The notes below the pieces were generated by a model. The model was not told where the DNA came from, searched no databases, and saw only the letters and a program-made list of their open reading frames with translations. From a virus, in the IMG/VR virus record IMGVR_UViG_3300013126_000007, positions 1 to 35,448 of that record: a DNA stretch of 35,448 nucleotides; one strand, 5' to 3'. The translations under genes were made by a program, and so were the position numbers. This document shows positions 27,384 through 35,448 of the stretch, in pieces (position 1 is the stretch's first letter; each line of letters begins with the position of its first letter).

Positions 27384-27598
27384 CGCAGCCCCCCGGGCCC
27401 CGGGGTCACACCACGCCGTCGGAGGAGGCGATCGATGGTCGCGGCAGCGGTTGCGCAAGCGACGGCCTCTGCGCCCTCGCGTGCGCCCTCCAGGGCGAGG
27501 ATCTGGAGGGCGCCTCGGAGCGCGGTAGCGTCCGTGCCGGAGAAGGGCGCCGAGGCTGCCACCGCTGCCGCGGTGCGCTGGTCGAGGGGGTCGCTCAC
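27380..27598 (-). CDS. Small early helical protein, unknown
   Basis: The protein has 72 residues from a GTG at 27598 overlapping the stop of the Cro-like gene. It is Ala-rich and helical (ATALRGALQILALEGAREGAEAVACATAAATIDRLLRR) and ends GVTPGPGGLR. It is co-translated with the Cro-like regulator. No motif or membrane segment that would give a function. Confidence 0.55.
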   Translation of the reverse strand: MSDPLDQRTAAAVAASAPFSGTDATALRGALQILALEGAREGAEAVACATAAATIDRLLRRRGVTPGPGGLR

Positions 27599-27843
27599 GC
27601 TGCCCTCTGCTCGACGCGCTCCACTGCCCGGAGGGCGGTGCCGCTCAGGCGAGGCCAGGCGTCAGGAGCGATCCCGAGCTCTCGCTCAAAGGCCACCTTT
27701 GTGGCGGGGCCGGGAGCCTGCTTGCCGCTCAGGATCCGGCTGAGGTTCCCCTGGTTGATCCCCAGCCGCGCCGCCAGAGCTACCTGAGAAAGGCCGTGCT
27801 TCCTCATGGCCTTGGCGATCATCAGCAGCGGACTCTTTTTCAT
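27595..27843 (-). CDS. Cro-like XRE-family regulator
   Basis: The protein has 82 residues from an ATG at 27843. Residues about 18-45 form a clear helix-turn-helix (GLSQVALAARLGINQGNLSRILSGK), of the kind found in Cro/C1-type repressors. The rest is a short helical tail without a cleavage or dimerisation domain. Divergent to the larger repressor, first in the leftward early operon, with its promoter covered by an operator. This is the standard place for a Cro that turns down repressor synthesis and commits to lysis. Confidence 0.8.
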   Translation of the reverse strand: MKKSPLLMIAKAMRKHGLSQVALAARLGINQGNLSRILSGKQAPGPATKVAFERELGIAPDAWPRLSGTALRAVERVEQRAA

Positions 27844-27854
27844 CGTGGTGAGCC

Positions 27855-27883
27855 ACTATGCGCAGGCCATGCGCAAAAGTCAA
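27855..27883 (-). promoter_or_regulatory. Leftward early promoter (Cro-like operon)
   Basis: On the minus strand TTGACT (27883-27878) and CATAGT (27860-27855) are separated by exactly 17 bases. The ATG of the Cro-like gene begins 11 bases after the -10, so the leader would be about five bases or absent. Operator O1 (27859-27875) fills the spacer and touches the -10, so binding there would block RNA polymerase. Confidence 0.7.
27859..27875. promoter_or_regulatory. Operator O1 (paired TGCGCA)
   Basis: TGCGCA at 27859-27864 and again at 27870-27875, start to start 11 bases. Each half is itself palindromic, so the whole is symmetric. It lies between the -35 and -10 of the leftward promoter. Confidence 0.7.
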
Positions 27884-27884
27884 G

Positions 27885-27901
27885 TGCGCACATTATGCCC
27901 A
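27885..27901. promoter_or_regulatory. Operator O2 (paired TGCGCA, one mismatch)
   Basis: TGCGCA at 27885-27890 and TGCCCA at 27896-27901, the same 11-base spacing as O1. It lies just upstream of the repressor gene, over a possible -10 (CATTAT, 27891-27896), so it is the likely site controlling the repressor's own promoter. No good -35 was found for that promoter. Confidence 0.6.
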
Positions 27902-27932
27902 TGGTTTTCACCGCGCAGTTCAGCCTTGCACA

Positions 27933-28574
27933 ATGATAGAAGAAGGCCGTGAGCGGCTCACCAGCCGCCAGAACGAACATGTCCGCCGGGTAGGCCGAGA
28001 GGTCCTTCGGGAACGCTTCGACCAAAACGGCACTCGCATGGCCGCATCCATCGGGATCACCCAACCCAACCTCTCCAGGTTCCTCAACGGGAAGCAAGGA
28101 ACCACTCGGGACGCAGCGCTGAAGATCCTGGCCCTCGGCGGCGTCGAGCCGGCCCACGTTGGGCTCGACTCGCCGTCAAGCGAGGTGCTGTTCCGCATCC
28201 CGTCGGTATCCCACCACCCCGAGTGGCAGAACGCCGAGGCCGAGGCCAGGCGCCTTTACAAGCGCATCCCAGAAGACGCATGGGCCTCAGCCCGGCGGTT
28301 TTCGTACCATGGCACCGTCCACCACATCACCCCAGAGTTTGTCATGCACCTTGCGCTTGCCGCTTACGACATAAGCCCATCGGAGCCCATGGTTGCCGCG
28401 GGTTTACTTGGGTTCCCGGGGTGTCGTCAGGCACACGGCAAAGTCATAAAACGGGGTCCCAAGGCAAAGCGGTCCGCTGGAGGTGCCGGCCACTTTGCTT
28501 TCTGGATGGCGCTGAAACTCGGTTTTTTCAAACGAATAATCAGAGGTTGGCGAGCATCCAGGAACCAGTTTTAG
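27933..28574 (+). CDS. Phage repressor (CI-like, XRE-type HTH)
   Basis: The protein has 213 residues from an ATG at 27933. A longer in-frame start at 27858 would lie inside operator O1 and the opposite promoter, so it is rejected. Residues about 12-62 hold the HTH (GTRMAASIGITQPNLSRFLNGKQGTTRD). The C-terminal part has no Ala-Gly or Ser/Lys pair of the LexA-like autoprotease type, so induction by RecA-driven self-cleavage is not expected. About the last 55 residues (after AAGLLG) are basic and Gly-rich and overlap, in antisense, the next minus-strand gene. It is predicted to maintain lysogeny by binding the TGCGCA operators. Confidence 0.7.
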   Translation: MIEEGRERLTSRQNEHVRRVGREVLRERFDQNGTRMAASIGITQPNLSRFLNGKQGTTRDAALKILALGGVEPAHVGLDSPSSEVLFRIPSVSHHPEWQNAEAEARRLYKRIPEDAWASARRFSYHGTVHHITPEFVMHLALAAYDISPSEPMVAAGLLGFPGCRQAHGKVIKRGPKAKRSAGGAGHFAFWMALKLGFFKRIIRGWRASRNQF

Positions 28575-28961
28575 ACGAGACTGGCAGGATATTGTGGAAT
28601 ATCCCCAGAACTTGTCCGAGTTGGAGAGATAGGTAGCTCCCGACCTGAGACCGAGGCACGTTTCTCCGAAAGAAGCGCATACCTCCGCCCCGGTGCTATT
28701 GACCGGGACGCGCCGGTATGTGCCTTTGAGCGACCAGTATTCCACAGACTTCAGTCGCCCATCGACCTTCTCGCGCTCCAGCTCCAGCGCTGCCACCCTT
28801 GCATCAAGGAGAGAGGCGGCGCTGGCGGCAGCGGCCGACTGCCACTGCACGAACCCCAGGCCCCGCTGCTGTTCCGCTCGGTCCGCCTTGGAAGATAGGT
28901 GGACGGCCCACAGGAGGCCAAGCATGACCCCCCAGGTTACGATGTGATGCCATGCCTTCAT
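28404..28961 (-). CDS. Membrane-anchored coiled-coil/Cys-containing protein, possible lysogeny (moron) gene
   Basis: The protein has 185 residues from an ATG at 28961 without a good ribosome-binding site. An N-terminal hydrophobic anchor or signal lies at about residues 5-22 (HHIVTWGVMLGLLWAVHL). A coiled coil follows at about 28-72, then a non-helical domain with five cysteines (CASFGETCLG, ISCQSRLKLVPGC, GPLCLG, FAVC) that could form disulphides outside the cytoplasm. Base composition is clearly less GC-rich than its neighbours. Flanked by operators O3/O4 and antisense to the repressor 3' end. It may be an accessory gene expressed from the prophage, for example for exclusion of other phages; the function is unknown. 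Confidence 0.55.
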   Translation of the reverse strand: MKAWHHIVTWGVMLGLLWAVHLSSKADRAEQQRGLGFVQWQSAAAASAASLLDARVAALELEREKVDGRLKSVEYWSLKGTYRRVPVNSTGAEVCASFGETCLGLRSGATYLSNSDKFWGYSTISCQSRLKLVPGCSPTSDYSFEKTEFQRHPESKVAGTSSGPLCLGTPFYDFAVCLTTPREPK

Positions 28962-28981
28962 GAGGCGAGGTTACCGACGTT

Positions 28982-28998
28982 CGCGCATAGGTCGCGCA
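28982..28998. promoter_or_regulatory. Operator O3 (paired CGCGCA)
   Basis: CGCGCA at 28982-28987 and 28993-28998, again 11 bases apart and each one base away from TGCGCA. It lies just upstream of the minus-strand membrane protein and so mirrors O1 relative to the Cro-like gene. Confidence 0.55.
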
Positions 28999-29007
28999 AA
29001 AAAGAGG

Positions 29008-29035
29008 TTGACGTTCCCCGATCTATGCGTATCTT
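29008..29035 (+). promoter_or_regulatory. Rightward early promoter
   Basis: TTGACG (29008-29013) and TATCTT (29030-29035), spacing 16. The expected start point, about seven bases on, coincides with the ATG at 29042, so the message would be leaderless. Operator O4 overlaps the -10. Confidence 0.6.
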
Positions 29036-29042
29036 ATGCGCA
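29026..29042. promoter_or_regulatory. Operator O4 (TGCGTA / TGCGCA pair)
   Basis: TGCGTA at 29026-29031 and TGCGCA at 29037-29042, with the 11-base spacing of the other sites. It covers the -10 and start point of the rightward promoter. Its right end (TTATGCGCATGG) closely resembles the right end of O2. Confidence 0.65.
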
Positions 29043-29443
29043 TGGCCAACACGGACAGCCCCGCTCTCCCCGACCTCCTCCGCTTCTCCCGCCCCTCCGA
29101 CGACCTGGAGGCGCAGGCTTCCCTTGCCGCCGACCTGGAGGAGACGCGCCGCGCCGCCTCCCTGCTGGGCGAGGCCGACGCCTTCGTCCGCGCCGCCTGC
29201 CTCCTTGGCGCCGCCGACCGCGCTCTTACCCGCGGTGAGACCCCGTGGGCGCTTCTCGACGCGGCAGAGCGCGAGGTGACCGACCTCCGCCTGGAGCACG
29301 GCTGCGAAGACTGGCCGTCCGCCGACTGGTCGCAGGCGACGGTGCAGGACGTGGCGCTGCTGCACGACACCTGCGTCGAGCTCCGGCGCCAGGCCCGCGC
29401 CCTCCGTGACGCGCGCCTGCCCAGCCTGCGTCGCGCCGGCTGA
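29042..29443 (+). CDS. First protein of the rightward operon, unknown
   Basis: The protein has 133 residues from the ATG at 29042; an in-frame ATG at 29036 lies inside the promoter. The sequence is helical and Ala/Leu-rich (DDLEAQASLAADLEETRRAASLLGEADAFVRAACLLGAADRAL), with an aromatic acidic loop (GCEDWPSADWSQAT) and a basic C-terminus. No motif. Expression under O4 suggests that it is an immediate-early protein. Confidence 0.65.
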   Translation: MANTDSPALPDLLRFSRPSDDLEAQASLAADLEETRRAASLLGEADAFVRAACLLGAADRALTRGETPWALLDAAEREVTDLRLEHGCEDWPSADWSQATVQDVALLHDTCVELRRQARALRDARLPSLRRAG

Positions 29444-29449
29444 CCTCCC

Positions 29450-29463
29450 GCCCCTTCGGGGGC
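29450..29463 (+). terminator. Hairpin with UUCG tetraloop after the first rightward gene
   Basis: GCCCC-TTCG-GGGGC forms a five-pair GC stem closed by the very stable UUCG loop, seven bases after the stop at 29443. No T tract follows, so it is more likely an RNA-stabilising or attenuating hairpin than a full terminator. Confidence 0.4.
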
Positions 29464-29525
29464 CTTGCCCTGCCTCTTCTGCGCGGAGGGGCAGCGCCAG
29501 GCCGACGACGGCCAAGGAGAAGACA

Positions 29526-29732
29526 ATGCCCCGCATCCCCAGCCACCCCGAGTTCATCGACGCCGCCGTCCTCGACGCCGAGACCGACTGGCTCAGCGAC
29601 GACGACGCCCGCGTGTTCCCCGACGACTTTTCGCGCCCCTGCGAGCGGTGCGCCGCCCCCAGCCTCGGCGGGCGCTGGTGCCCCGACTGCGAGGCGTACC
29701 TGCAGTCCCTCGACCTGCCCGGAGCCCACTGA
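29526..29732 (+). CDS. Small zinc-ribbon protein
   Basis: The protein has 68 residues; the ATG at 29526 follows AAGGAGAA. An acidic helical N-terminus (FIDAAVLDAETDWLSDDDARV) leads into a CERC...CPDC pair separated by 11 residues, a minimal zinc ribbon. The gene starts the coupled series after the hairpin. Such small zinc proteins in phage early operons often bind host proteins or nucleic acid. Confidence 0.65.
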   Translation: MPRIPSHPEFIDAAVLDAETDWLSDDDARVFPDDFSRPCERCAAPSLGGRWCPDCEAYLQSLDLPGAH

Positions 29733-29971
29733 TGGAGCGCGCCCTCGCTGCCCACGGCATGGCCGCCAGCGTCGAAGACCTCGCCGCCTACTGGCGTGCC
29801 CTTGGCCGCCCCGTCCCCTGCGACCCGGGCGCCTGCCCGCCCGACCGCGCCGACGAGGAGGCCGACCTCGCCGACGCCCTGGAGGCCATCGGCGCCCCCG
29901 TCGTGCCGTCCCGCGCCGTCCGCCAGCGGCGCCTCACCGCCGCCCTCCGCAAGCTCCGGTGCCTGCCGTGA
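29732..29971 (+). CDS. Small protein, unknown
   Basis: The protein has 79 residues from an ATG that overlaps the previous stop by one base (TGATG). It contains a helical start, a DPGACPPDRADEEADLADALEAIG stretch and a basic helix (SRAVRQRRLTAALRKLRCLP). Reminiscent of small hook-like DNA-binding helices but without a clear motif. Confidence 0.55.
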   Translation: MERALAAHGMAASVEDLAAYWRALGRPVPCDPGACPPDRADEEADLADALEAIGAPVVPSRAVRQRRLTAALRKLRCLP

Positions 29972-30300
29972 TCCCATCCCTCACCCCTGCCTGCGCCCTC
30001 GTTCTCCCTCGCCTCGCCCTGGAGGCGATGCGCTCCCTCTCCGTCCCCCTGCCCCTGGAGGCCATTGTGAAAGTCCTACGCCCCGTTCTCTCCGCGGTCG
30101 ACACCCTCGACGCCGCCCGCGCCCTCGTCCAGCTCGTCGCCCGCGCCCAACTCGGGCAGGTGCGCGGCGGGCCCGCCGTCGCCCGTGCGGTGCGCACCAG
30201 GGCCGCATGGCTGCGCACCTACGGCGACCTGATCCGACGGACCGAGGACACGCTCCAGGCTGCGGAGCATGGCGCGGGTGCGCTGGAGGTGATGCCGTGA
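29968..30300 (+). CDS. Helical protein, unknown
   Basis: The protein has 110 residues from a GTG in a GTGA overlap. It consists of leucine/alanine-rich helices (LVLPRLALEAMRSLSVPLPLEAIVKVLRPVLSAVDTLDAARALVQLVARAQLG). The C-terminus ends in LEVMP encoded by GGAGGTGATGCCGTGA, which doubles as a near-perfect ribosome-binding site for the next gene. Confidence 0.6.
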   Translation: MIPSLTPACALVLPRLALEAMRSLSVPLPLEAIVKVLRPVLSAVDTLDAARALVQLVARAQLGQVRGGPAVARAVRTRAAWLRTYGDLIRRTEDTLQAAEHGAGALEVMP

Positions 30301-30563
30301 CCTCCGAGATCACCCTCCTGGCCGCCGCCCTGCCGGGGTGGACGATCTCCGCCGAGGTCGACAGCACCGGGTACGTCCGCGCTGTGGCTCGCGACGAGCG
30401 CGGGTCTCGCGCTACCGTGACCGTGCGCGGCATCTGGAGCACCGATCTGGGGGGCGCCTGGAACTCCCTGGTAAGCACGCTCCTTCTGCATTCGCGCCTG
30501 CTCTCCGAGAAGGAGATCGCCGCGCTCGATTCGCTCGTCTCCCGCGCCGCAGGTGCAGCATGA
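30297..30563 (+). CDS. Small alpha/beta protein, unknown
   Basis: The protein has 88 residues from a GTG in a GTGA overlap behind GGAGGTGAT. Strands in the first half (WTISAEVDSTGYVRAVARDERGSRATVTVRGIW) are followed by two helices (LVSTLLLHSRLL; KEIAALDSLVSRAAG). No known motif. Strong translation is expected from the embedded ribosome-binding site. Confidence 0.6.
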   Translation: MTSEITLLAAALPGWTISAEVDSTGYVRAVARDERGSRATVTVRGIWSTDLGGAWNSLVSTLLLHSRLLSEKEIAALDSLVSRAAGAA

Positions 30564-30625
30564 CGCGCGGAGGCCATGCCGCCGTGGACCGCGCCGTGAA
30601 GACCTACGAGGAGCAGTGCAAGTGA
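30560..30625 (+). CDS. 21-residue micropeptide in the rightward operon
   Basis: ATG at 30560 in an ATGA overlap, ending in GTGA that starts the next frame. One short charged helix (GGHAAVDRAVKTYEEQCK). It may simply be a translational relay that keeps ribosomes on the message. Confidence 0.35.
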   Translation: MTRGGHAAVDRAVKTYEEQCK

Positions 30626-30726
30626 CCCTCTTCTTCCTCCGCTTCGGCACCGCCTACGACCCCACCAACCTCTGCGACCTGATCCGTAGCGCCATCCCGC
30701 GCTGCCCTTTGGAGGTGATGCCGTGA
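30622..30726 (+). CDS. 34-residue peptide, possible duplicated gene end
   Basis: GTG start in a GTGA overlap. The sequence CDLIRS...PLEVMP matches the end of the 110-residue protein at 29968-30300 (GDLIRR...ALEVMP), and the final 16 bases, GGAGGTGATGCCGTGA, are identical in the two. It therefore looks like a partial duplication of that gene's 3' end, kept because it supplies a ribosome-binding site. Confidence 0.4.
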   Translation: MTLFFLRFGTAYDPTNLCDLIRSAIPRCPLEVMP

Positions 30727-31064
30727 TCCACGAGATGGAAGACGACGCGGTCGGCCTGCCCGTCCGACGCTGCGACCGCTGCGGCGCGGTGCTGGTGGTG
30801 CTCTCGCGCTGCCCCTCGCACCAGGTCGAGGACCTCCAGGCCCGCCTCGAGGAGGCGCGCGACGCGCATGCGCCGCTTACCGAGCGGATCCTGGAGGCGC
30901 TCCGGTGCCTCGGGCCCACCTCGATCAGCCGCCTCTGCGACCTGGTGATCTGCGCCTCGGGGGAGGCCGCTACCGCCCTCGTGCGCCTCGAGCGCAGGGG
31001 CCTCGCGCACCGGCACCAGCCTGGCGTCTGGGCGCCGGGGCTTTACGAAGGGAGGGCCGCGTGA
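30723..31064 (+). CDS. Zinc-ribbon / winged-helix protein
   Basis: The protein has 113 residues from a GTG in a GTGA overlap. The N-terminus has CDRCG (one CxxC; a further Cys lies at about 30). A coiled-coil bridge follows. Residues about 52-107 are a winged helix (LTERILEALRCLGPTSISRLCDLV... ATALVRLERRGLAHRHQPGVWAPG), with the wing ending in a turn and WAPG. Probable DNA-binding regulator of the later part of the life cycle. Confidence 0.65.
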   Translation: MIHEMEDDAVGLPVRRCDRCGAVLVVLSRCPSHQVEDLQARLEEARDAHAPLTERILEALRCLGPTSISRLCDLVICASGEAATALVRLERRGLAHRHQPGVWAPGLYEGRAA

Positions 31065-31312
31065 TGGCCCGCTTGTGCATCTGCGGCGAGCCCACCGCCA
31101 CCCCACGATCCCAGCGCTGCAAGGAGCACGCTACCTACCGCGCCCTCTCGAAGGCGGGCCGGGTGCCCACCGCCGCCGCTGCCGTTCAGCAGTGCCCGCG
31201 CTGCGGCGGTCCCCTCGCCCATGACGGCGTCGTGGTGGCCTGCCGGCGGCGCATCGCCTGCGGCTGGGTCGAGCTCGTCAGCCGCGCCGTGCGCGCAGGA
31301 GGTGCCTCGTGA
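31064..31312 (+). CDS. Small cysteine-rich protein
   Basis: The protein has 82 residues from the ATG at 31064; a GTG three bases earlier gives a GTGA overlap and one extra residue. It has an LCICG motif, a KEHATYR region that resembles a phage zinc-binding start, and a second pair (CPRCGGPL...CRRRIACGW). Two zinc sites are plausible. Likely nucleic-acid or protein binding; no enzyme motif. Confidence 0.6.
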   Translation: MARLCICGEPTATPRSQRCKEHATYRALSKAGRVPTAAAAVQQCPRCGGPLAHDGVVVACRRRIACGWVELVSRAVRAGGAS

Positions 31313-31731
31313 TCGCTCTCGCCCACGCCCTCTCCCAGCAGCCCCCCTGGTGGCGCCCTCACACCCCCAGGCACCTGACCCTCCTCCGGGAGATCGCCGG
31401 CCTCGCACCGGACCTATGCCGGGTGCTCAACTCCGACGATGACGCCGAGGTCACCTCCGTCACGACTGCGGCCTGGGGGGCCCTGGCCTACGCAGCCGGG
31501 GCCCGCCTGGAGCCGGCCGCGCCCACCGCATGCTCCGCCGAGGAGGCGCGGCGCCTGCTCCGGATCTACGACGCCGTCTGGCTGCTGATGCAGGCCCTGA
31601 GCGTGCTCAGCAAGGTGCCTCCGCCGAAGCGCCGCGAAGCGCGCGCCGTGACCGACAACCGCACGATCTGGGGCATCCGGTGCAAGGAGCGACACCTGGC
31701 CCTCGCGGCGCTCCTGGGAGGCCAGCCGTGA
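31309..31731 (+). CDS. Helical protein, unknown
   Basis: The protein has 140 residues from a GTG in a GTGA overlap. Almost entirely helical (LTLLREIAGLAPDLCRVLN; SVTTAAWGALAYAAGARLE; EEARRLLRIYDAVWLLMQALSVL) with a basic C-terminal part (PPPKRREARAVTDNRTIWGIRCKERHL). No membrane segment is clear. No recognised family. Confidence 0.6.
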   Translation: MIALAHALSQQPPWWRPHTPRHLTLLREIAGLAPDLCRVLNSDDDAEVTSVTTAAWGALAYAAGARLEPAAPTACSAEEARRLLRIYDAVWLLMQALSVLSKVPPPKRREARAVTDNRTIWGIRCKERHLALAALLGGQP

Positions 31732-33416
31732 CCGCGCGCCAGGAGCCAACCGCGCGCCAGGAGCCGACCGAGCGCGAGCTGCTGGCCCAGCGCCTGCTGC
31801 AGCACCTGCACCCGACCGACGGGCGCGGGGTCGTGGACCTGCTCACGATCGCGGGCCTGCCGTCAGGGCGGGGCCTGGCCCAGAGCGCAACGATCGCGCT
31901 GAACGATCTGGCGGCGAAAGGCCTCGCCCGGAAGGAAAAGGGGTACGGGCGCATCCCCCTGTTCTTCGCCGTCCCCGCCCCGGTCACGGCCCCCGAGGAG
32001 CGCGTCGAGCTGGCCGAGCTGGACGCCGTCCTCACTATCACCTCCATCGCATCGCGCCCCGTCGGCGCCCCCTCCGACCGCACCACGCTCACCGTCGCCG
32101 CCACCTTGGGCCCCTCCTGGCCCGAGGGCGTGCGGGTGCCGAGCTGGTCGACCAGCCTCTTTGCCGCCCAGGTCGCCGCCGGCGGCCTCGCCGGGGCCAG
32201 GTCCGCCGGCCTCGCGCGCCTGACCGAGATGCTCACCACGCTTCGCTACGCCTCCCCCACCCACGATTTCCTCCCTCCTCCCGAGGTACCTGTGACCGAC
32301 CGCGACACGATCTCCGACCTCCTCGCCTACTGCGCCGGCGTCTCCGGCGGAGCGAAGGACTCCAGCGTCCACTCCTGGCTGAAGGCCCGCCGGGTCAACC
32401 GCATCCGCGCCGAGGAGCTGCTTGAGCAGCTCGTGCACGAGGGGCGCCTGCGGCTCGTCGAGCGCCCGATCGCTGGCGGCGAGGTGGTGGTGCGCTACCT
32501 GCCCGCCGACCCATCGACGAAGGCCGCCCCCCTGCCCGTGAGCGACGCTCCGGCGGAGGAGCCCGTCGAAGAAGAGCCCACCCCCGAAGAGGAGCCCGTC
32601 GCGGTCGCTGGCGCCGAGGAGCCCTGCCGGAGCTGCGCCGAGTTGCGCCAGGCGCACGGCAAGCTGGAGCACCAGCTCTGGGAGGCGGAGTCCCGGGCCG
32701 CCGTTCTTCAGGAGAAGGTCGAGGACTGGGATCGGAGGCACCGGGAGCAAGACGCGGCGCATGTCCGCGAAGTGCGCGACCTGCGCAATCAGGTCGACCG
32801 GCTTGCATCCGAGGTGTTCCAGGCGCGAGCGACCTCGGTGGACATCATGGCCGAGGCCGCGGAGGCGCTGGGGCTGGACTCGGAGACGGAGTGGCCTCTG
32901 GTGATCGACAGGATCGGCTCTCTGAATAGGGCCCGCGCCTCCGCTGCCGCCCCCGCCCTCGACCAGGGCGCCATCGCCCACTACCTCCTCTCCCTCCCCG
33001 AAGAGCGCTGGACCTCGCTGGCCACCGCGCGCCAGCAGCTCGCCCAGGCCCGCGAGATGGCCCACGCCGCGCGGGCCCTGGAAGAAGCCGCCCTCGCGGC
33101 GGTCGACGGGCTCCTCTCCGCGCCTGCCGGCGCCCCCGCACCTGCCCCAGCCCCCGAGTTGGAGCCCGACCCGATCCCCCTCGGCCCCACGCCCCCGCCG
33201 GTGGCGCACACTTTGGGGGAGCCCCGCCCCGGCACCCAGCGAGCCGCGATCCTCGCGTGGATCCGCCGGCAGCCCGACGCCACCGCCACGGTCAAGGCCG
33301 CGGCAAAGCGGTTTGACCGGCTGGTAGGAGATATGTCTTCGGTCTTGACCACGATGCACAACGCGGGGCTCCTGAAGCGCGTGTCCACCGGCCTCTATCG
33401 GGCGGTGAAGCCGTGA
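31728..33416 (+). CDS. Large multi-winged-helix coiled-coil protein
   Basis: The protein has 562 residues from a GTG in a GTGA overlap. It opens with a short tandem TARQEP repeat. Three segments look like winged helices: about 12-78 (LLAQRLLQHLHPTDGRGVVDLLTIAGL...LNDLAAKGLARKEKG), about 190-260 (ISDLLAYCAGVSGGA..HSWLKARRVNRIRAEELLEQLVHEGRL) and about 505-562 (RAAILAWIRRQPDATATVKAAAKRFDRLVGDMSSVLTTMHNAGLLKRVSTGLYRAV). Between the second and third are an acidic Pro/Glu linker, a CRSC pair, a coiled coil (about 305-370) and a Pro/Ala linker. It has no catalytic motif. The architecture suggests a DNA-organising or transcription-control protein; I do not recognise a family. Confidence 0.6.
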   Translation: MTARQEPTARQEPTERELLAQRLLQHLHPTDGRGVVDLLTIAGLPSGRGLAQSATIALNDLAAKGLARKEKGYGRIPLFFAVPAPVTAPEERVELAELDAVLTITSIASRPVGAPSDRTTLTVAATLGPSWPEGVRVPSWSTSLFAAQVAAGGLAGARSAGLARLTEMLTTLRYASPTHDFLPPPEVPVTDRDTISDLLAYCAGVSGGAKDSSVHSWLKARRVNRIRAEELLEQLVHEGRLRLVERPIAGGEVVVRYLPADPSTKAAPLPVSDAPAEEPVEEEPTPEEEPVAVAGAEEPCRSCAELRQAHGKLEHQLWEAESRAAVLQEKVEDWDRRHREQDAAHVREVRDLRNQVDRLASEVFQARATSVDIMAEAAEALGLDSETEWPLVIDRIGSLNRARASAAAPALDQGAIAHYLLSLPEERWTSLATARQQLAQAREMAHAARALEEAALAAVDGLLSAPAGAPAPAPAPELEPDPIPLGPTPPPVAHTLGEPRPGTQRAAILAWIRRQPDATATVKAAAKRFDRLVGDMSSVLTTMHNAGLLKRVSTGLYRAVKP

Positions 33417-33490
33417 GCCGCTGGACCCCCGAGCAACGCGCCCGCTGCGACGGCGTGCTCGCGGTGCGCCCGCGCAAGAGGGCCGCGTGA
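33413..33490 (+). CDS. 25-residue basic micropeptide
   Basis: GTG at 33413 in a GTGA overlap, ending in GAGGGCCGCGTGA, which overlaps the next GTG. The same 13 bases occur at 31052-31064. The product (SRWTPEQRARCDGVLAVRPRKRAA) is basic. It may be a translational relay only. Confidence 0.35.
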   Translation: MSRWTPEQRARCDGVLAVRPRKRAA

Positions 33491-33669
33491 GGCACTCCGT
33501 CGAGCCCCTCGACCCCCGATGGGAGCGTGCCGTGTGGCGCGCGCACCGCGGCGACAAGGACCGCTGCTGGCTGCTGATCCTCGTCTGCGGCCACACCGCC
33601 ACGCGGCACCGGCTGGAGCTGCCGCCGAAGACCACCCGCTGCGCCAAGTGCGCGAAAGGAACCCCGTGA
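33487..33669 (+). CDS. Small zinc-finger-like protein
   Basis: The protein has 60 residues from a GTG in a GTGA overlap. The C-terminal half has VCGHTATRHRLELPPKTTRCAKC, a Cys/His then CxxC arrangement of the kind seen in short treble-clef or zinc-ribbon proteins. Basic and probably nucleic-acid binding; no enzyme motif. Confidence 0.6.
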   Translation: MRHSVEPLDPRWERAVWRAHRGDKDRCWLLILVCGHTATRHRLELPPKTTRCAKCAKGTP

Positions 33670-33869
33670 CCACCATCTCACTCCACGACCTGCACCGCCT
33701 CCTTGCCGACGCCGTGATCCAGTCGATCCACCGCGACGGCTGCGACGTGTACCTGGCCCTCTCGCGCGAGGACTCGCGCCGGTGGGCGCTGGTCCACGAG
33801 CGCGACGGCGAGATCGACACCGACGCGGACCCGGTGGCCCTCCTGCGCCGGTACCTGGAGGCGCCCTAA
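33666..33869 (+). CDS. Small alpha/beta protein, last gene of the rightward run
   Basis: The protein has 67 residues from a GTG in a GTGA overlap. A helix (LHDLHRLLADAVIQSI) is followed by strands (CDVYLALSREDSRRWALVHERDGEI) and a short acidic helix. No motif. It ends the coupled run; a hairpin and a 64-base gap separate it from the excisionase-like gene. Confidence 0.55.
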   Translation: MTTISLHDLHRLLADAVIQSIHRDGCDVYLALSREDSRRWALVHERDGEIDTDADPVALLRRYLEAP

Positions 33870-33898
33870 CCGCCTCGCCCTCCCCTCTCGCCCCCGAC

Positions 33899-33916
33899 GC
33901 CCCGGAAAACCGGGGC
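33899..33916 (+). terminator. GC hairpin between the rightward operon and the excisionase-like gene
   Basis: GCCCCGG-AAAA-CCGGGGC is a perfect seven-pair stem with a four-base loop, 29 bases after the stop at 33869. No T tract follows on either strand, so an intrinsic terminator is weak; transcript protection or partial attenuation is as likely. Confidence 0.45.
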
Positions 33917-33933
33917 CCGGGGGCTGAGGGCGT

Positions 33934-34260
33934 ATGGAAGCTCTGCTCACGGCGGAAGAAGTCGCGGCGCGGCTCCGGTGCCCGCTGCGCACCGCGTACC
34001 TGCGGATCAAGGAGATGCCGCACCTGCGCAACGGCAAGCGTGTGTTGGTGACGGAGAAGGCGCTGCAAGACTGGATCAGGAGAAACACATGCGACTCTAC
34101 AAGCGCGGCAGATACTGGTGGGTCGCCTGGCCCGGAGACGAGCGCGAGTCGTCGAAGCAGACGACGCGCCCGGCGGCTGAAAGCTGGGCACGACAGCGAG
34201 AGCTCGAGCGAGCCGATCCCGTGCACGCAGCCGCGCGCGCGGCGACGCTCGGCCGCCTGA
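33934..34260 (+). CDS. Excisionase-like HTH protein overlapping the integrase gene
   Basis: The protein has 108 residues from an ATG at 33934. Residues about 4-50 are an excisionase/MerR-type winged helix (LLTAEEVAARLRCPLRTAYLRIKEMPHLRNGKRVLVTEKALQDWIRR). After that the composition changes to Ser/Arg-rich, and the frame runs 172 bases into the integrase coding sequence in a different frame, so the last half is probably a by-product of missing an early stop. The protein should bind near attP and bias the integrase toward excision. Confidence 0.7.
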   Translation: MEALLTAEEVAARLRCPLRTAYLRIKEMPHLRNGKRVLVTEKALQDWIRRNTCDSTSAADTGGSPGPETSASRRSRRRARRLKAGHDSESSSEPIPCTQPRARRRSAA

Positions 34261-35141
34261 TCGTGCGCTACCTCGACGACCGTAAGGGCGCCGGGCGTAG
34301 CGAGGCCACGCTGGGCTTCTACCGTCAGAAGCTCGGCCACTGGACCCGGCTCCTCGGGGCCGAGTGCCCGCTGGCCGAGATCACCGCCAGCGCCATCGAT
34401 GGCGCTCTCGCCCAGCGCCGCGCCGAGGGCGCCTCCCCGGCCACCGTGGCGAAGGAGGCAAAGGCCCTGGGGGCGGCGCTGCGCAAGGCCAAGCGCTGGG
34501 GGCTCTGGCGCGGCGACCTCGACGAACTGCTCCCCGACCTGGGCGAGACCTATCACCCGCGCTCGCGGTGGCTGCCCCCGGACGAGCTCGAGCTCCTGGT
34601 CGAGGAGCTGGAGCAGACGCAGCCCCACTACGCCGGCGCCGTGGCCTTCGCCGTGGCCAGCGGGGCCCGCCGGAGCGAGATCGCTCGCGCCACCCGGAGC
34701 GACCTCGAGGAGGCCCTCGCCACCGGCCTCCTCCCGATCCGGGGGACGAAGACGGCGAAGGCGAGCCGCCCCGTCGCGGTGCTGTCGATTTTCCGCCCGT
34801 GGCTGGAGCTGGCCCTGCGGCTCGCCCGCGAGGAGGGCGCGGCCTTCGGGTCGTGGGTGCTCTCTGGGAACGCGCGCCGAGAGATTCTGAGCGCCTGCGC
34901 TCGCGCCGGCATCGCCCCCGCGACCTGGAACGACCTGAGACGCACCCACGGCAGATGGCTCCGGCGAGCGGGGGTGGAAGTGGAGCTGATCGGAGAGCAG
35001 CTGCGGCACACCTCCCCAGCGATGGCCCGGCGGGTGTACGCCCAGATCACCCCGGAGGAGGTAGGCCAGCAGATCGAAGCGCGGCTCTGTCCGCCGGCTG
35101 TCCGCGCAGAGCCGACGTCGACGGGATCCAACGGGGCCTAA
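34089..35141 (+). CDS. int: Tyrosine-family site-specific integrase
   Basis: The protein has 350 residues. The ATG at 34089 gives a normal N-terminus (MRLYKRGRYWWVAWPGDERES), an arm-binding type beta domain, followed by a SAM-like core-binding domain at about 53-150. The catalytic domain has Arg194 (SGARRSEI), a beta-hairpin Lys at 221 or 224, Arg284 in WNDLRRTHG, His307 in LRHTSP and Tyr317 in RRVYAQI, the nucleophile. The residue usually His three positions before Arg284 is Asn281. It should recombine attP with the host tRNA-Lys attB. The gene ends 35 bases from the attP core. Confidence 0.9.
   Translation: MRLYKRGRYWWVAWPGDERESSKQTTRPAAESWARQRELERADPVHAAARAATLGRLIVRYLDDRKGAGRSEATLGFYRQKLGHWTRLLGAECPLAEITASAIDGALAQRRAEGASPATVAKEAKALGAALRKAKRWGLWRGDLDELLPDLGETYHPRSRWLPPDELELLVEELEQTQPHYAGAVAFAVASGARRSEIARATRSDLEEALATGLLPIRGTKTAKASRPVAVLSIFRPWLELALRLAREEGAAFGSWVLSGNARREILSACARAGIAPATWNDLRRTHGRWLRRAGVEVELIGEQLRHTSPAMARRVYAQITPEEVGQQIEARLCPPAVRAEPTSTGSNGA
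35087..35104. repeat. Putative integrase arm site, left pair
   Basis: Two CTGTCCG units at 35087-35093 and 35098-35104 (11 bases apart), inside the end of int. The same pair with one change in the spacer is present on the other side of the core at 35275-35292. Direct repeats flanking the core fit arm-type integrase sites. Confidence 0.6.
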
Positions 35142-35175
35142 CGGCGCGCGTCAATCGCGGTTTCCTGCGGGTTTT

Positions 35176-35225
35176 TGGTGGGCCGAGCGGGACTCGAACC
35201 CGCGACCTACGGATTAAAAGTCCGC
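35176..35225 (-). other. attP core: 3' half of a tRNA-Lys(UUU) gene
   Basis: On the minus strand 35225-35176 reads as a 17-base anticodon arm with loop CTTTTAA (anticodon UUU, Lys), a five-base variable loop, a 17-base T arm containing TTCGAGT, the 3' acceptor strand TCGGCCC, discriminator A and an encoded CCA. The D arm and 5' acceptor strand are absent: upstream sequence does not pair. Phages that integrate at tRNA genes carry just such a 3' fragment, so that the host tRNA is rebuilt on integration. The site lies between int and the lysozyme gene in the circle. It is not a functional tRNA. Confidence 0.85.
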
Positions 35226-35274
35226 TTTTTGTGGCCTTGGATCCAGCGGACATTGACCCCGTTTCAAGGCCTAT

Positions 35275-35292
35275 CTGTCCGCCCGCTGTCCG
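35275..35292. repeat. Putative integrase arm site, right pair
   Basis: CTGTCCG at 35275-35281 and 35286-35292, again 11 bases apart, matching the left pair in 17 of 18 positions. A further inverted copy of the unit (GCGGACA) lies at 35246-35252. Confidence 0.6.
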
Positions 35293-35303
35293 TCGATGCA
35301 ACG

Positions 35304-35448
35304 CTACCGCCGCCGGTAGCCCTCGGCCAGCAGGTCGCGCGCCAGCCCCTCTCCGGTCTGCGCCACCAGCTCCCGGATGCGCCCCTCGTCGAGCTCGACG
35401 GTGGGCTCCGCCGGAGGAGGCTCCGGAGCAGCGGGAGCCTGCTGGCCC
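35304..35448 (-). CDS. 3' end of the T4-type lysozyme gene (continues from position 1)
   Basis: This holds the last 47 codons of the lysozyme that starts at 776, with a TAG at 35306-35304. Bases 35326-35448 repeat the first 123 bases of the window in the same frame. The extra residues beyond the repeat are EGYRRR. The stop faces the integrase stop at 35141, and attP lies in the convergent gap. See the entry at 1-776 for the catalytic residues. Confidence 0.8.
   Translation of the reverse strand, partial: GQQAPAAPEPPPAEPTVELDEGRIRELVAQTGEGLARDLLAEGYRRR
35326..35448. repeat. Right copy of 123-bp terminal direct repeat
   Basis: Exact copy of bases 1-123. The match begins at 35326 and runs to the end of the window. 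It shows that the sequence closes on itself, by circular form or circular permutation, with an arbitrary start point inside the lysozyme gene. Confidence 0.95.

Follow-up and report, generated by a model that had tools for sequence, protein, structure and literature searches.

The early left operon of phage lambda offers the nearest described parallel to a chain of mostly small genes that lies at 29042-33869 in a virus, probably one of soil bacteria; the full 35448 nucleotides (nt) of its IMG/VR record, IMGVR_UViG_3300013126_000007, constitute the window analyzed here. In the portions of the literature cited, no lambda pL gene other than N is needed for plaques, and whether ral is essential depends on the host strain (PMC10695390), kil belongs to the same operon (PMC3961180), and ral, gam and kil all stand in the operon comparable to our chain (PMC10695390, PMC3961180). 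The excerpts drawn on describe translational coupling by RNA unfolding, and NTGA overlaps, as known mechanisms (PMC12548453, PMC6728339), and lambdoid mosaic modules join at short conserved boundary sequences according to the excerpted part of PMC3029335.

We consider it quite probable that the block constitutes a temperate phage's early 'left' operon and works much as lambda PL does, with an array of cassettes encoding early helper proteins read as a gated translational chain. Transcription would start at a promoter-like site beneath an operator-like site of the cI/cro kind and would run away from the replication operon, towards excisionase, integrase and attP. Once repression is lifted, gene 1 would be translated from a leaderless message, and the ribosome ending at its stop codon would open a hairpin (hairpin 1) and free the Shine-Dalgarno (SD) sequence of gene 2. 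Genes 2-14 would then be read as one chain through termination-reinitiation, with a second hairpin (hairpin 2) marking the end of the operon ahead of xis-int. The cassettes themselves would be conditionally useful early helpers, serving DNA recombination in the case of the gene 11 module and coping with the host, counter-defense included, in others. Like lambda PL, the operon has a putatively operator-controlled promoter that points away from the replication operon, many small and presumably dispensable genes, and xis and int inside it. Unlike lambda PL, it contains no recognizable N, Red, Gam, Kil or Ral, its genes are joined almost throughout by overlaps of 1-4 nt, and hairpins flank the chain.

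The putative start of the operon is a sigma-70-like promoter, TTGACG-16-TATCTT, at 29008..29035 on the + strand, identified in a promoter-pattern scan that returned three such sites across 27500-35448 where 0.2 were expected. Its -10 element ends 6 nt ahead of the gene 1 ATG, so the early transcript may be leaderless. A scan for paired TGCGCA motifs placed two operator-like sites, with pairs 11 bp apart, at the divergence of cI and cro (27857..27903), and two more within 28980..29044, one at 28982 with two mismatches and one at 29026 with a single mismatch, the latter sitting over the -10 of the early promoter. At up to one mismatch the whole window contains three TGCGCA pairs, against 0.23 expected, and all three are at the early promoter or at cI/cro; at the two-mismatch level, which includes the site at 28982, there are eight against 3.2 expected. 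The early promoter is in this way overlain by a predicted operator of the immunity region, and xis and int follow distally on the same strand together with attP, as in a PL-type operon.

The genes that define this setting are a Cro-like HTH_3 protein (27595..27843, - strand; Pfam HTH_3 E 1.8e-9), first gene of the opposite, replication operon; a cI-like repressor candidate with a helix-turn-helix (HTH) motif (27858..28574, +; Pfam HTH_3 E 0.0011, under the curated cut-off); an excisionase-like HTH_17 protein, xis (33934..34260, +; Pfam 8.5e-8, PHROG 66 2.7e-5); and a tyrosine integrase, int (34089..35141, +; Pfam 1.2e-11, PHROG 1 1.1e-39). The excisionase-like frame overlaps the start of the integrase by 172 nt (33934-34260 against 34089-35141). 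The attP core, at 35176..35225, is the 3' part of tRNA-Lys(TTT) and agrees with an intact tRNA-Lys in 50 of 50 nt. Because repressor, Cro, excisionase, integrase and attP core are all present, the window is, judged by its gene content, a temperate phage.

A sequence-only reading of the window made earlier had described fourteen tiny, stop-start-coupled frames at 29526-33869, non-structural, under early control and opposite to the replication operon. Its view of early control is borne out, as far as sequence goes, by the promoter-like site and the overlapping TGCGCA operator-like site, and the anatomy agrees with the rest of that placement. The distal xis and int with attP, the hairpins and the cassette pattern found no mention in it. 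The chain is indeed continuous, and it comprises 13 consecutive + strand frames in this interval (genes 2-14), the number fourteen being reached only when gene 1, at 29042, is counted. The overlaps are as described at each of the 12 junctions that link genes 2-14, by 1 nt in one case (TGATG) and by 4 nt in the others (ATGA once, GTGA ten times), but genes 1 and 2 are 82 nt apart and hence uncoupled by overlap; nor does the size range given, mostly 20-140 residues, extend to gene 11, with its 562 amino acids (aa). Successive stops and starts thus overlap between open coding frames throughout genes 2-14, as a coupled chain should. Chance coupling is frequent in this GC-rich DNA (394 of 985 placed stops, or ~40%), so single overlaps mean little, and 12 of 12 would arise with a probability of about 2e-5. 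A codon-usage model, for which eight genes elsewhere in the phage served as the training set, ranks each of the 14 frames (that of gene 1 among them) first of the six possible; the lowest coding scores belong to gene 12, with a total of 6 bits, and to genes 13, 9 and 6, with 14, 16 and 17 bits. Codon scores and overlaps together rule out chance frames as an account of the whole chain, and leave that account open for genes 6, 7 and 12.

A single relative of the early region was found by protein in the viral collection, IMGVR_UViG_3300016469_000560 (L005). Gene 1 (29042..29443, + strand like the whole chain; 133 aa, predicted helical) matches it at 78% over 86 aa, with a ratio of nonsynonymous to synonymous change (dN/dS) of 0.34 over 104 codons; gene 2 (29526..29732; 68 aa, two CxxC pairs) at 80% (dN/dS 0.20); gene 3 (29732..29971; 79 aa) at 85% (0.22); gene 4 (29968..30300; 110 aa, helical) at 71% (0.45); and the C-terminal half of gene 11 (31728..33416) at 51% over 272 aa (0.36). 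The replication protein, for comparison, gives 0.25 between the two phages, and synonymous sites have changed by 31-43%. Genes 1-4 and the C-terminal half of gene 11, whose order is unchanged in L005, are by these ratios a common core under purifying selection. L005 has an additional 57-aa frame between genes 2 and 3, and its gene 4 is joined directly to gene 11 by GTGA. Since gene 4 abuts gene 11 there, the following are missing from L005: gene 5 (30297..30563; 88 aa, recognized by its coding score, relative not found), gene 6 (30560..30625), gene 7 (30622..30726), gene 8 (30723..31064; 113 aa), gene 9 (31061..31312; 83 aa), gene 10 (31309..31731; 140 aa, recognized by its coding score) and approximately the first 190 aa of gene 11. 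In gene 11, an N-terminal 190 aa of its own precedes a winged-helix-like part, a middle that by eye resembles a coiled coil, and a C-terminal MarR_2-like winged helix.

The packaging and head proteins of L005 are just 26-31% identical to those of the window; because they are so diverged, the early region travels as a module. The window integrase has no match in the L005 record. The head of the L005 operon has the same layout as ours, TTGACA-17-TAAGGT with an ATG 7 nt behind, and immunity was apparently swapped between the two phages while the operon head stayed. The L005 promoter (L005:3715 region) carries a different palindrome, GACAAG-N5-CTTGTC, between its boxes, and in L005 an HTH gene occupies the Cro place, with no cI-like gene seen beside it.

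A second phage contig, IMGVR_UViG_3300037502_003876 (L047, 86.7 kb), was reached through hairpin 2. There, a relative of gene 3 (68%) directly precedes a member, 147 aa long, of the gene 12 family (58% to the family member in L005); gene 9-like proteins together with a C5 DNA methylase come next, and then the hairpin. The gene 9-like stretches give three matches, the best at 53% (E 2e-20), the methylase (L047:3207-3971; 5.7e-5) is within the related small-gene operon, and several junctions are likewise ATGA or GTGA. Further along from the methylase is a sigma-70 region 4 protein (L047:578-1312). As L047 holds relatives of genes 3, 9 and 12 rearranged, the genes are common to relatives in different orders. 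Given this reordering and the absence of genes 5-10 from L005, the operon resembles a series of interchangeable cassettes linked through overlapping stop and start codons. By analogy with the lambda pL genes, single cassettes would be expected to be conditionally useful.

The third locus of interest, L044, is a contig of a Polyangiaceae metagenome-assembled genome (MAG) that carries a relative of gene 11 (E 1.3e-15), found in 1 of 282 genomes. Upstream of it are the end of a UvrD_C helicase and a Sak4-like annealing protein (PHROG 124, 2.1e-48), and then come an unmatched protein of 160 aa and an HTH protein of 477 aa, which lie in between; a DUF1643 protein is downstream. These neighbors appear to point to DNA recombination rather than anti-defense, and it is DNA recombination that we infer for the gene 11 module.

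The sequence-only reading had proposed host takeover or anti-defense for the chain, and a stronger form of that proposal is that most of the small proteins make up a dedicated battery, binding and inhibiting restriction enzymes, CRISPR-Cas or RNA polymerase. We regard this as possible, if short of an even chance. The early position, the small size of the proteins and their turnover between relatives all suit it, as do the C5 DNA methylase among the L047 cassettes and, on the cited parts of PMC10695390 and PMC3961180, the presence of ral, gam and kil in the comparable lambda operon. Against it, the company of recombination genes kept by the gene 11 relative in L044 suggests a different role, and searches of genes 1-14 against Pfam, PHROGs, NCBIfam and PADLOC, part of which covered genes 1-5, 8-11 and 14, revealed no anti-defense, defense or host-takeover family. 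Gene 11 and seven other products likewise found no match among 50,697 phage records. Viral scans for close relatives of gene 11, capsid and integrase, and comparisons of capsid and gene 11 with phages and of gene 11 with plasmids, returned nothing, and lambda did not appear among the matches in the phage-collection searches made. Counter-defense for some cassettes is thus plausible by position, by the L047 methylase and by the lambda analogy, on which it is a fair guess; no family match sustains the original proposal.

The same searches agree with the earlier statement that none of the products is recognizable as a known gene, the only signals being a MarR_2 match of gene 11 just under the cut-off (E 5.9e-6), a weak MarR match of gene 8 (E 0.011), which combines a CxxC pair with a winged-helix-like C-terminus, and weak zinc-ribbon matches of genes 2 and 9. 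The CxxC pairs noticed at first are present, and the zinc-binding and winged-helix folds attributed to several products correspond to these weak or sub-threshold matches. Structure prediction, which had been suggested as a check, gave a usable model for gene 1, with four helices and a predicted local distance difference test score (pLDDT) of 77, that had no match at E <= 0.001 in PDB or BFVD; the gene 4 model, at pLDDT 64, was too poor for a fold search. No match to a known counter-defense family or fold was found, folds having been compared for gene 1 alone. No anti-restriction or recombination genes were recognized in the window. Matches of genes 1, 4 and 10 in Myxococcota genomes were weak and were left unused, that of gene 10, to a low-complexity, membrane-like protein, being judged false; for gene 8 a search of 108 genomes gave no match.

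Hairpin 1 occupies the interval from the gene 1 stop to the gene 2 start (29445..29519, +) and was recognized by its conservation with L005 and its folding z score. The surrounding stretch, 29418-29519, is identical in 98 of 102 nt in the two phages, a smaller change than the 31-43% at synonymous sites, and folds as one long stem (z -2.5 to -2.6 in the window, -3.5 in L005), at the base of which CCUC behind the gene 1 stop pairs with the gene 2 SD sequence GGAG. Read by eye, the four differences between the phages fall at unpaired places or keep a standard pair. This geometry suggests that hairpin 1 is a translational gate for gene 2. As in the known cases of translational coupling, so far as the excerpts of PMC12548453 and PMC6728339 describe them, NTGA overlaps occur together with an RNA fold that covers a downstream ribosome site; unlike in those cases, hairpin 1 would be predicted to gate a chain of 13 genes.

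It is rather unlikely, in our judgment, that hairpin 1 is instead a transcript-processing (RNase III-like) or antitermination site. A long nested stem kept in two phages would fit such a site. Gene 1 holds the first-gene place, which we take to be that of N in lambda, without itself having a family or fold match. N is the sole essential gene of the lambda operon in the cited part of PMC10695390. However, in both phages the base of the stem coincides exactly with the flank of the gene 1 stop and the gene 2 SD sequence, and only 4 of 300 and 5 of 300 shuffles of the spacer hide the SD sequence at that place, which favors a gate. An intrinsic terminator was rejected, there being no T-run and no terminator called there, and comparison with Rfam reached no cut-off and gave one chance-level match. 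Matches to a 21-nt piece of hairpin 1 in the viral collection were confined to the L005 record; those in the Polyangiaceae family (45 of 108 genomes) were short and GC-rich, and were set aside.

Hairpin 2, which would close the chain between gene 14 and xis (33890..33932, +), was recognized by its folding z score, -4.1 for 33867-33933, and by pairs kept across loci. A scan with its 24-nt pattern hit a single record of the viral collection, L047, although such scans may leave out the record of the window itself, and 1 of 98 genomes of the Polyangiaceae family, which is the MAG of L044. The inner 14 pairs hold in all three loci; once both partners have changed, from A-U to G-C, and there is a single wobble. 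The outer 7 pairs do not hold (67% of cells). Sliding the partners lowers pairing from 91% to at most 67%; a shuffle control on the three sequences (261/500) cannot discriminate.

We considered next to the exchangeable array the possibility that many of the tiny frames are mosaic debris, recombination scars held open by GC-rich composition, with only genes 1-4, 9, 11 and perhaps a few others making working proteins. For individual genes this has force. Genes 6, 7 and 12 (21, 34 and 25 aa) could be scars, given how short they are, and their total coding signal is small; gene 12 (33413..33490), on comparison, is the truncated head of a 147-aa protein family found in L005 and L047, and is probably a deletion scar. 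The 40% of stops that couple by chance also speak for debris. For the chain as a whole we find it unlikely, in view of the codon scores of all 14 frames, the relatives of genes 3 and 9 in the otherwise different phage L047, and the purifying selection on genes 1-4 and the C-terminal half of gene 11. The chain ends with gene 13 (33487..33669; 60 aa, one CxxC) and gene 14 (33666..33869; 67 aa), the latter with a coding score of 53 bits.

The manner in which such cassettes might be joined can be examined at their ends. Genes 4 (30224-30300) and 7 (30674-30726) share exact words of 13 and 16 nt in the same order, and both end at the same 16-nt boundary; we do not claim that genes 6-7 are a decayed copy of gene 4, the score being 47 against up to 61 elsewhere in the operon. 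Of 187 junction pairs, four have 12 or more of 15 nt in common, where 0.23-0.30 would be expected. An SD-matched null, whose string pools are as small as 1-4, makes the number at 12 unremarkable (P 0.42; 0.90 without the gene-4-tail pairs) and leaves the number at 11 unusual (P 0.0004; 0.0024 without these pairs). The statistical case for boundary reuse in the chain is thus mixed. Clark (2001) and Susskind and Botstein (1978) are reportedly the works cited for lambdoid boundary sequences. The window resembles lambdoid mosaics, as the excerpted part of PMC3029335 presents them, in that cassettes seem to be exchanged near gene ends and similar end sequences recur at unrelated junctions, and differs from them in these mixed statistics.

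That the chain is lysogeny cargo, expressed from the prophage for the benefit of the lysogen (superinfection exclusion, for example) rather than for early lytic growth, is improbable: it adjoins repressor and integrase and its accessory content varies, but an operator-like site on the promoter should leave a lysogen silent there, and a neighbor at 28404-28961 on the other strand is the better candidate. This neighbor encodes 185 aa with a hydrophobic N-terminal stretch, points towards the repressor gene and away from the early operon, had no family match, and is a candidate for cargo or superinfection exclusion.

Several observations weigh against the PL-like, gated operon that we favor. Its transcription and translation are predictions from sequence, and among its genes in the window neither an N-like antiterminator nor a recombination gene was recognized. 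Hairpin 1 is known from just two phages, and it is hardly more conserved than the best coding stretch of 102 nt (97/102). When gene 1 and hairpin 1 are folded as a whole, GGAG is hidden via other partners, and when the first 12-20 nt are held open, the openness of the SD sequence climbs no higher than 0.50-0.52 in the window (from 0.34) and 0.43 in L005 (from 0.29). L044 and L047 are distant, the same promoter and operator being demonstrated in neither, and the frame of the gene 11 relative (L044:797-1945) is broken near its start, through assembly error or decay.

The record as a whole has a GC content of 71%, bears an exact direct repeat of 123 nt at both ends and encodes a P22-like portal (Pfam E 4e-10) and a VapE-like replication protein (Pfam E 1.4e-71). 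A terminase relative (73%) is present in a Polyangiaceae MAG. Since this relative and, on another contig, the gene 11 relative belong to the same MAG, a Myxococcota host is likely, with the caveat that short MAG contigs can be mis-binned. Of 282 genomes drawn from the phylum of this MAG, 258 match the attP core at E <= 0.001, and one of the 282 contains the intact tRNA-Lys that agrees with it in all 50 nt. The attP core at 35176-35225 supplies an attB to seek in Myxococcota. Among the papers listed by a full-text search on temperate phages, prophages, Myxococcota and Polyangiaceae, none is by its title about such a phage, which is not evidence of absence.

The kind of operon is known, and this operon, its relatives and its hairpins seem new to the annotated collections searched. 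The chain has the look of a place where helper genes are exchanged, and not of something wholly new. Counter-defense and host-modifying proteins are known to be encoded in temperate-phage early operons, and Polyangiaceae phages seem little studied. The hairpins and the relatives of genes 3, 9, 11 and 12 provide handles with which to collect more such operons and sort core from cassettes. Should hairpin 1 prove to gate the chain, it would offer a simple example of a whole battery being switched on by one ribosome event. We suggest only tentatively, as an idea on the unlikely side, that the operon represents a widespread platform of Myxococcota temperate phages, with a leaderless sensor gene and hairpin at its head, a closing hairpin, and overlap-swapped coupled genes that are translated only if gene 1 is read through. 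Were this true, the platform would be a ready catalogue of unknown counter-defense and DNA-metabolism proteins from hosts with little phage genetics.

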